Below, piece by piece: positions 21,425 to 23,247 of a stretch of 64,000 nucleotides of DNA. Numbering within the stretch: position 1 is the stretch's first letter; every line of letters starts with the position of its first letter. Position numbers and translations under genes: made by a program. The notes below the pieces were generated by a model. That model was not told the origin of the DNA, did no database searches, and saw only the letters and a program-made list of their open reading frames with translations. The DNA is from Oscillibacter sp. (lineage in GTDB: Bacteria > Bacillota > Clostridia > Oscillospirales > Oscillospiraceae). The stretch lies in assembly GCF_028693505.1 (NCBI RefSeq), contig NZ_JAQUVF010000009.1:1-64000 (forward strand). Reading direction: 5' to 3'.

Positions 21425-21598
21425 GTCCACTATTCTTTCGTATAACATTATACCCTGCGGGGTGCGTGATAGATCTTTTTTTAACCCACATTTCGTTATA
21501 CGGGACGCCGGATCAGTCCGTGGTTCGCAGGCCTCCCGACTGCTGTTTGCGGTTGGAAGTTGGAAGCGATGAAGCGGGGTGTAGGCAACCCACCTGTC

Positions 21599-21647
21599 CG
21601 TAAAGGTGCAGGTTATAACGGGGTCTACACGGCCTTCGCGGGGGTAC
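21599..21647 (+). repeat. 49-bp direct repeat, copy 1
   Basis: CGTAAAGGTGCAGGTTATAACGGGGTCTACACGGCCTTCGCGGGGGTAC; copy 2 differs at one base. Confidence 0.95.
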
Positions 21648-21652
21648 CCCGC

Positions 21653-21679
21653 GCCCCTGCCGCAAGGCAGGGGCTTTTT
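21653..21679 (+). terminator. Intrinsic terminator after 49-bp repeat copy 1
   Basis: GCCCCTGCC-gcaa-GGCAGGGGC-TTTTT. Confidence 0.85.
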
Positions 21680-21856
21680 GCCGTCCCGCCGCAGCGACAC
21701 CCGCCGCAGCGACGCCACAGGGACGCACATACTTCCCCAAAAGGCCGCCCACAGGGCGGCCTTTCCTGCGGCCCTGTGGCGGGAGAAACGGCGGCGCCTT
21801 GGCGGGCTGGGGGGACCCACGGGGCGCGGAGCACCACTCCGCATGGACGCGCCCAT

Positions 21857-21898
21857 GTCAAGGGCGAAGCCGCCGCAGCGGGCCGCAGGCCCCTTGAC
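21857..21898. repeat. 42-bp repeat with short inverted ends (GTCAAGGG...CCCTTGAC), copy 1
   Basis: GTCAAGGGCGAAGCCGCCGCAGCGGGCCGCAGGCCCCTTGAC, identical to 22612-22653. Confidence 0.95.
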
Positions 21899-22235
21899 GT
21901 GGACGGGGCCATGTGGTATTTCCCGTGGGGGGCTGCCCGCAACCGCCGTTTCGGGCCCGCAGCAACCGCCCCACCGGGGCGATTGCGATAAAAATTTTGG
22001 ACCGGAACGGGCCAAAATGCGGGCACACCTTTTTCTTTTTGACGCGGCAACGCGGCAAAATGAATGGAACGGGTGCCGCCCTCGCGGCGGCGGGTCCCGG
22101 CCCATCGCTTCTTTCATCGTCGCAGCAGCGGCGGTAGACCAACCTCTTCCGGCGTCGCTGTTCCATCCCGTTTGCTGCGCGGCGGGAGCCGCAGTCGGCG
22201 GAGCGAAGCGGAGCCATGGGAAAAGGGCCGCAGCC

Positions 22236-22559
22236 CTATTCCACCAACACCTCCATGGCTTCCTCCCACGGATTCCAGAGCTTCCCCTCGTCTGCGTAGT
22301 AGTCCGCGAGGTATTCTACGCACGCTTGGCACACGTCCGCAGGCTCCATGGGGTATCCCGGCATCTGCGTCCCATGGGCCACGGCGTGACACTTCCAGCA
22401 CAGGCAAATGAGGTTGTGGGGGAAATCCGTCCCCCCTTGGGACCGGAGCACCGCATGGTGGATTTGCAGTCCGTGGGTATCGTCGCACAGGGCACAGCGG
22501 TACCCGTCCCGCTTGTACACGGCCTTCCTTGTCTCCTTGCTGATGTTCGCTCCAATCAT
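22236..22559 (-). CDS. HNH endonuclease
   Basis: KETRKAVYKRDGYRCALCDDTHGLQIHHAVLRSQGGTDFPHNLICLCWKCHAVAHG, a canonical HNH fold with two CxxC pairs. Start MIGANISK at 22559. Confidence 0.9.
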   Translation of the reverse strand: MIGANISKETRKAVYKRDGYRCALCDDTHGLQIHHAVLRSQGGTDFPHNLICLCWKCHAVAHGTQMPGYPMEPADVCQACVEYLADYYADEGKLWNPWEEAMEVLVE

Positions 22560-22611
22560 CTTCAACGCCTTCCTTTCTGCCCCTCTGGGCGCTTTCGTTG
22601 CGCCGCACGAA

Positions 22612-22653
22612 GTCAAGGGCGAAGCCGCCGCAGCGGGCCGCAGGCCCCTTGAC
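22612..22653. repeat. 42-bp repeat with short inverted ends, copy 2
   Basis: Identical to 21857-21898; located between the RHH-like gene and the HNH gene. Confidence 0.95.
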
Positions 22654-22690
22654 CGTGTGGTACAATGGAAGCGTTCGGAGGGGCAGCGGT

Positions 22691-22930
22691 TTAGCCTTCC
22701 GCGCAGAGCTTTTCCACCAGCGCTACGATATCCTGCTTGGTGTCTGTTTGCGGCATCCACTCCCGGATGAGCCGTTGCAGCAGGGCATACGGGCTTACCC
22801 CCGCCGCGCTGCAAGCTCTCCTGAATGCCAGCTGTTCCCACAGCGGTAACTTGGTGGCGACGGTGCGCAGGTTATGCGCGTCCCATCGCGCCTGTCTCTT
22901 ACGGTCCACGGTTTCACCCCCTCTCATCAT
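22691..22930 (-). CDS. Small RHH-like or phage-type DNA-binding protein
   Basis: 79 aa: VDRKRQARWDAHNLRTVATKLPLWEQLAFRRACSAAGVSPYALLQRLIREWM, resembling a ribbon-helix-helix layout. Exact start uncertain. Confidence 0.65.
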   Translation of the reverse strand: MMRGGETVDRKRQARWDAHNLRTVATKLPLWEQLAFRRACSAAGVSPYALLQRLIREWMPQTDTKQDIVALVEKLCAEG

Positions 22931-23093
22931 TGTACTGGAAACCCCAAGAGTTTTCCACAGGATTTTCCACAGCTCACAAGTTTACTGTGTTTTACCTAGA
23001 GAAGTCACAAGCTTCTTGTGAGTAGGACCCGTGTCTTGCCCATCCCGGGCACCACCCGTAGTAGCCTACGCCGCAGGCGTATACCACATATAG

Positions 23094-23142
23094 CGTAAAG
23101 GTGCAGGTTATAACGGGGTCTACACGGCCATCGCGGGGGTAC
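23094..23142 (+). repeat. 49-bp direct repeat, copy 2
   Basis: CGTAAAGGTGCAGGTTATAACGGGGTCTACACGGCCATCGCGGGGGTAC; 48/49 identical to 21599-21647. Confidence 0.95.
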
Positions 23143-23152
23143 TTGAGGTAAG

Positions 23153-23184
23153 GCAGGGGAAGCTTCCCCTGCTCTTTCTTTTTT
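23153..23184 (+). terminator. Intrinsic terminator after 49-bp repeat copy 2
   Basis: Perfect palindrome GCAGGGGAAGCTTCCCCTGC followed by TCTTTCTTTTTT. Confidence 0.85.
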
Positions 23185-23247
23185 CCGCCGCAGCATCTTT
23201 CAGGTTTCTTTCAGGTTTCCCGTTTATTATGGGTTTAGATTTTCTGC

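Follow-up and report, generated by a model that had tools for sequence, protein, structure and literature searches.

To our knowledge, the prokaryotic mobile elements with which the present locus is compared move by a DDE, HUH, tyrosine, serine, DEDD, or Cas1-type enzyme, or by a reverse transcriptase. IS200/IS605 elements have their target base or bases immediately 5′ of the left end, and we know of none with long duplications. Target-primed reverse transcription yields one precise end, one ragged end, and duplications of variable length. Long and variable direct repeats, from 8 to 514 bp, arise at insertion of IS1549 and IS1634, and no mechanistic model accounts for them (PMC2266710). IscB/HEARO systems contain an HNH nuclease part and, besides it, a RuvC part and a guide RNA (PMC9755519).

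Here we analyze a window of 64,000 nt, the forward strand of positions 1–64,000 of contig NZ_JAQUVF010000009.1 (assembly GCF_028693505.1) from Oscillibacter sp., a gut bacterium. Within it, a small cassette encoding an HNH protein lies between long direct repeats, and related cassettes occur at many other sites. These elements resemble IS1549/IS1634 (IS4-related) in their long, variable duplications, but a DDE transposase and terminal inverted repeats, both features of IS1549/IS1634, were not found in the family; its elements have an HNH protein and unlike hairpin ends instead. They resemble IscB/HEARO, the ISC group of IS200/IS605, in that the nearest match of their HNH protein is the HNH part of IscB and a hairpin stands near the left end, and they share with IS200/IS605 elements the position of the target base. 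The family protein, however, has only about 100 aa and consists of HNH alone, with no RuvC, PLMP domain, or TnpA, and HEARO RNA (RF02033) has no match at E≤1 in the window or at E≤5 in six relatives.

Results

The 6S RNA locus and its unoccupied counterparts

An earlier sequence-only reading had reported 49-bp direct repeats around two minus-strand genes, RHH-like and HNH, and two 42-bp repeats. Direct sequence comparison bears this out: positions 21599–21647 and 23094–23142 are identical at 48 of 49 bases with a spacing of 1495 bp, and the 42-bp copies are identical at 42 of 42 and have complementary ends. The 49-mer core has only these two occurrences across the 2.06-Mb assembly, and a scan for flanking repeats (≥36 bp) at 56 points of the window returned this pair alone, so the pair is not due to chance. 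The 42-bp repeats are not genome-wide REP elements, as the host genome has only the two within the element; a sequence resembling them precedes the HNH gene at one related locus (L070). Both 49-bp copies are followed by a hairpin and a T-run, read from the sequence. The features of the locus, as we interpret them, are:

21449–21648, plus strand: complete 6S RNA (SsrS), its last 49 bases being the left repeat; Rfam RF00013, 65.1 bits, model positions 1–187.
21599–21647, plus strand: target-site duplication copy 1, the 3′ end of the intact 6S RNA; 48/49 to copy 2; single copy in relatives.
21648–23093, minus strand: mobile element, 1446 bp, left end 23093 and right end 21648 in HNH orientation; from the duplication borders, ends matching the family, and the 6S RNA of relatives that lack it.
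21653–21679, plus strand: right-end (RE) hairpin GCCCCTGCC-GCAA-GGCAGGGGC, then TTTTT, in terminator position behind the 6S RNA; similar GC hairpins end family members.
21857–21898, no strand assigned: 42-bp internal repeat copy 1, in the element's 3′ noncoding part; 42/42, complementary ends.
22236–22559, minus strand: HNH nuclease, 107 aa, zinc and catalytic residues intact; PF01844 at E 1.2e-5, 33-member alignment, predicted HNH fold (pLDDT 92).
22612–22653, no strand assigned: 42-bp internal repeat copy 2, between the RHH-like and HNH genes; 42/42.
22691–22930, minus strand: small RHH-like protein, 79 aa; family alignment, one family member matching Pfam RHH_9, low-confidence model.
23067–23081, minus strand: left-end (LE) hairpin TACGCC-TGC-GGCGTA, beginning 12 nt inside the left tip (23093); a feature common to the family.
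23094–23142, plus strand: target-site duplication copy 2, a 49-bp 6S remnant, with 23094 as the conserved G before the left end (minus-strand reading); 48/49 to copy 1.
23153–23185, plus strand: probable original host 6S terminator, moved away by the insertion; similar hairpin and T-run after 6S RNA in a relative (L006).

The Rfam match identifies the left 49-bp repeat as the 3′ end of a full-length 6S RNA, an identity that the first reading did not contain. The right copy has no 6S sequence upstream; nothing else in the window is 6S-like at E≤1, and Rfam and tRNA scans found no RNA at the right copy and no structured RNA within the element. Among 86 same-genus genomes, 79 have a recognizable 6S RNA, and the 29 loci examined share the order PBP-DUF1292-6S, with PpiC nearly always following within the stretch. 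None of the 29 has an HNH gene at this place, and relatives carry a single copy of the 49-bp segment, which is the outcome that the first reading had predicted in close relatives for an insertion. Where the downstream sequence was inspected, an ordinary terminator and promoter sequence follow the 6S RNA. In L006 the hairpin behind 6S RNA resembles that at 23153–23185. For this reason we take the right-hand of the two hairpins to be the terminator of the host and assign the one at 21653–21679 to the insert. The first reading had placed a terminator behind each repeat; both hairpins with their T-runs are present, but only the right one appears to be the 6S terminator, the left being the element's own end hairpin. 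The genome that carries the closest homologous element (G030, 72% HNH identity) has an unoccupied 6S locus and its element elsewhere. In three further genomes (G037, G072, and G075), the 6S RNA is divided across contig ends, which may reflect assembly breaks or further insertions at the locus.

At the level of genome comparison, these data establish the insertion of an element in the 3′ end of 6S RNA with duplication of 49 bp of target. By the same comparison, the 6S sequence has been kept whole, while its natural terminator now lies 1.5 kb away and the RE hairpin with TTTTT has taken its place. The first reading had also entertained two paralogous noncoding RNAs sharing a 3′ module, with unrelated genes between them. 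This would explain two 49-bp copies that each have a terminator-like hairpin behind them; a 6S RNA at the left copy only, the right one being a 49-bp remnant, together with single copies in relatives and cassette homologues that carry other repeats elsewhere, leaves it with practically no probability.

Related elements and their target duplications

At least eight further genomes of the same genus contain HNH homologues (51–72% identity), and so do 43 GTDB loci, two sets that overlap in part; nearly all of the latter are in Oscillospirales, and host genera include Oscillibacter, Dysosmobacter, Flavonifractor, Pseudoflavonifractor, Yanshouia, Evtepia, and others. Elements of the family measure roughly 1–2.2 kb and are present in one to three copies per genome. 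We searched for a direct repeat with at least 36 matching bases around the HNH gene at those GTDB loci that have at least 1 kb on both sides (n=24), and 23 of the 24, one of them doubtful (L109), are bracketed in this way; the remaining locus, L096, has ample flank and yet no repeat. The same test was positive at 3 of 75 distant HNH loci and at 1 of 56 window positions, that one being the 49-bp finding itself. The repeats are 39–162 bp long (median 55), mostly free of mismatches, and nearly all distinct from each other. They consist of the local target: 6S RNA in the window, the 3′ end of tRNA-Leu (L103), and the C-terminal codons of rplL (L075 and L077), ackA (L076), and etfA (L099), gene names being read from translations. 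At all of these sites one complete gene end remains after the duplication. The longest matches between an element and its own target are no longer than those between it and the targets of other elements, and a guide-RNA model was rejected.

In two genomes, elements form tandem arrays of the form repeat-element-repeat-element-repeat: Oscillibacter sp. MSJ-31 (L098/L213, 5956–9100) and Yanshouia hominis (L216, 333–2538), in which the second copy has an internal deletion running through the HNH gene. At L072 (4552–7867; the same as L058), a further insertion of a different kind, 1.5 kb long and with a 3-bp overlap, appears to interrupt the second copy of a duplication of about 120 bp. A distant HNH gene in Eubacteriales MB2.83 (L126, 2023–4702) is flanked by a 122-bp direct repeat (119/122) with a spacing of 2.56 kb, and this locus possibly represents a further family of the same kind. 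Neither fragments nor solo copies of the element were found in the 86 same-genus genomes, only HNH-bearing elements, and phages, plasmids, and viral contigs contained only distant HNHs and no family member.

A unit that is found at different sites, with unoccupied sites in relatives and duplications that match each target locally, is a transposable element in the broad sense, and comparative genomics thus shows 21648–23093 to be one copy of a mobile family of Oscillospirales with long, variable target-site duplications. The idea of a small HNH element at the 3′ end of a structured RNA, one of the two that the first reading had offered, holds up in its main part: the RNA is 6S, empty sites exist, and homologues have other duplications elsewhere. 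Its comparison with elements at tRNA and tmRNA genes does not. Like this family (6S here; tRNA-Leu in L103), such integrative elements enter structural RNA genes at the 3′ end with a repeat that keeps the gene whole, but they bring along a fixed att segment on which an integrase acts. In the present family no integrase is recognized, and the repeat is copied from the target rather than brought by the element. Since the sequence duplicated around each element is that of its own local target, we call the repeats long target-site duplications and not att sites. A decayed prophage or integrative element, whose lost integrase left the 49-bp repeats as attL and attR, would likewise repeat the last part of a structural RNA gene and leave that gene whole; since almost every site has a repeat of its own, one and the same pair of genes and ends is met again at many places, and no member occurs in phage or plasmid records, we judge this origin very improbable.

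L075 and L077 come from two species and have related elements at the same rplL position, with repeats that are identical within each genome and different between them. Independent insertion, homing, or gene conversion are possible explanations, and the shared site means that some repeats may be ancient, with gene conversion having preserved the identity of their copies. The family may be compared with free-standing HNH homing genes (I-HmuI-like nickases, T4 mob genes), in which a small HNH protein, likely a nickase, is also the sole universal protein. If the HNH gene were a homing endonuclease that is normally copied by recombination to the same site in relatives, insertions at new sites with long duplications would be rare repair accidents. 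The resemblance of the small HNH protein to the type found in phage homing genes, the shared rplL site, and the low copy number fit such a scheme. We nevertheless consider it improbable, since nearly all elements occupy different, unrelated sites, L075 and L077 being the one pair at a common site, and show a single left-end and repeat structure throughout, and since homing needs no conserved hairpin ends. Family elements differ from homing genes in having such defined ends, many unrelated targets, long duplications, and usually an RHH-like partner.

Gene content

The HNH gene is the only gene common to all elements, and in some of the smallest it is the sole recognizable one (L082, 952 bp; L084, 1019 bp). 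The zinc cysteines and residues H34, H35, N49, and H58 are invariant in an alignment of 33 HNH proteins. The modeled structure (pLDDT 92) shows an HNH fold, with McrA-type enzymes, IscB, and other HNH enzymes as its nearest neighbors; PDB profile matches include 9k2z (IscB) and 6me0 (a group II intron maturase), and the score against the NCBIfam IscB model NF040563 is 55 bits, below the IscB cut-off of 175. Of 27 elements, about 21 have an RHH-like gene that can be recognized, partly by eye; it may lie to either side of the HNH gene, and is missing or unrecognizable in about a quarter. The RHH-like ORF of the window has no significant Pfam match, one family member matches RHH_9 (E 9.5e-4), and the monomer model, of low confidence, places two helices after the expected strand; the small partner protein may have an RHH fold, for which the evidence is modest.

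No transposase, integrase, or reverse transcriptase was recognized in the elements by Pfam, NCBIfam, and PHROGs for the window and by ORF inventory for the others (short ORFs only, by eye). Among 21 element-bearing genomes, a reverse transcriptase match (RVT_1) is present in 9 and absent from 12, and a Y1 transposase is present in 10 and absent from 11, absences that are partly due to incomplete assemblies; neither enzyme is a constant companion of the element. Among the carriers that lack RVT_1 are G030 (94% complete), whose duplication of 51 bp is perfect, and the isolate G127, whose duplication, likewise perfect, measures 93 bp. The window's own genome contains two RVT_1 genes (G000:C23:42425-43081 and G000:C34:1991-2524).

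Element ends

Read in the direction of the HNH gene, the left end is joined directly after the repeat. In 25 of 27 elements the repeat ends in G (P about 1e-11 at 30% G); at its first base there is no preference. The left-end hairpin, of 5–6 bp, lies at a distance of 12 nt from the tip in 12 of the 27; counting starts at 11–13 nt, 13 of 27 have such a stem, against 1.2% of shuffled sequences, and the stems vary in sequence with pairing kept. Among the elements L070–L111, the hairpin starts 9, 12, 15, 21, 24, or 27 nt from the G junction, all multiples of three, and L078 and L103 fit this spacing once their borders are shifted by 2 and 1 nt. On the right there is typically a strong GC hairpin, behind which come 0–20 variable nt. 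Similar copies in Yanshouia hominis and strain D5 end with the same right hairpin except for L217, which stops inside the hairpin at a 9-bp match (microhomology) with the target. The G junction and hairpin on the left, and the variable border and L217 microhomology on the right, indicate that one end is exact and sequence-specific and the other ragged. The two ends are unlike, each with its own hairpin, and there are no terminal inverted repeats.

One specific and one ragged junction, variable duplications, and a start by an endonuclease are also found in LINE-type retroelements and group II introns. A retroposon-like element could have its RNA, from LE to RE hairpin, copied into the nicked target by a reverse transcriptase acting in trans, from a group II intron or similar, with the HNH protein as target endonuclease. 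The asymmetric ends, the variable repeat length, the microhomology at the RE junction of L217, and the two reverse transcriptases in the window's own genome would all be in keeping with this, and group II intron maturases contain HNH endonuclease domains, one of them (6me0) being among the profile matches. Yet no element encodes a reverse transcriptase, which sets the family apart from LINEs and group II introns, and RVT_1 is missing from 12 of 21 hosts, including G030 and G127. Nor were 5′-truncated copies found in the 86 genomes, in a search of limited sensitivity, and the sequence-specific side is the LE rather than the RNA 3′ end. We regard retroposition as unlikely, though deserving some weight.

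A candidate copy-in mechanism

We propose that the HNH protein would nick one strand of the target after a G, probably helped by the RHH protein binding the element ends. The exposed 3′ end would then be joined to the left end of the element, or would prime its copying from there. Some 40–160 bp away, at a point set by no sequence preference and in some cases at microhomology, the other strand would be broken or re-entered, and filling of the gap would produce the long duplication. Since the duplication is long, insertions near the end of a gene would regenerate the gene and be tolerated. We know of no HNH protein that joins DNA; much of the reaction must therefore fall to host enzymes. The 6S identity, the empty sites, the homologous elements at other sites with 23 of 24 duplications, the G in 25 of 27 elements, the LE stems, the L217 microhomology, the invariant HNH residues and confident HNH fold, and the tandem arrays speak for this model, as do the HNH-only elements and the absence of RVT_1 from 12 and of Y1 from 11 of 21 host genomes. 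We put the chance that an HNH nick after G starts a copy-in reaction finished by host functions at about even. Homing overlaps with the copy-in model, and the difference is whether insertion at new sites is the main route.

Against the copy-in model, the family could be non-autonomous and driven in trans; the low copy number (1–3), the element without a repeat (L096), the RHH-like gene that is missing or not recognizable in about a quarter of elements, and the possibly old rplL repeats also count against it, and incomplete assemblies account for part of the RVT_1 and Y1 absences. One version of movement in trans would have an unseen long-duplication transposase, for example an IS1634/IS1549-like DDE enzyme, move a non-autonomous DNA element in which the HNH protein is a passenger or regulator. 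The repeats of IS1549/IS1634 are a precedent for such duplications, equally long, variable, and without a model. A passenger or regulator would sit poorly with HNH being the one constant gene and with its strictly conserved catalytic residues; furthermore, LE differs from RE without terminal inverted repeats, and the 86 same-genus genomes contain no related copies that lack HNH. On this evidence such a transposase seems quite unlikely.

Discussion

Each of the classes of element compared here failed on at least one tested defining feature, and we therefore call the element type new, leaving its mechanism aside. From its sequence features, the family looks like an undescribed class of mobile element. 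In the open literature, limited to open-access text in which absence is no proof, we found no account of integration at 6S RNA and none of an HNH element that has long duplications. The copy-in model, stated in full, would describe an autonomous class of bacterial transposable element whose sole dedicated enzyme is an HNH nickase of about 100 aa, which nicks after G and whose hairpin left end is copied or joined by host replication and repair enzymes, with 40–160-bp duplications rebuilding the gene end; this wider claim is plausible but, in our estimate, falls somewhat short of an even chance.

If it is true, a two-gene element that has an HNH nuclease as its only such enzyme and long, variable target duplications would add a new way of moving DNA, possibly among the smallest. 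The long duplications of IS1549/IS1634, still without an explanation, could be studied in the family as a natural test case. The likeness of its HNH protein to IscB raises the question of whether it has a common ancestor with RNA-guided nucleases, living in mobile elements. For the bacteria that carry it, the long duplication suggests how an element may enter important genes, such as those for 6S RNA, tRNA, and rplL, without destroying them.
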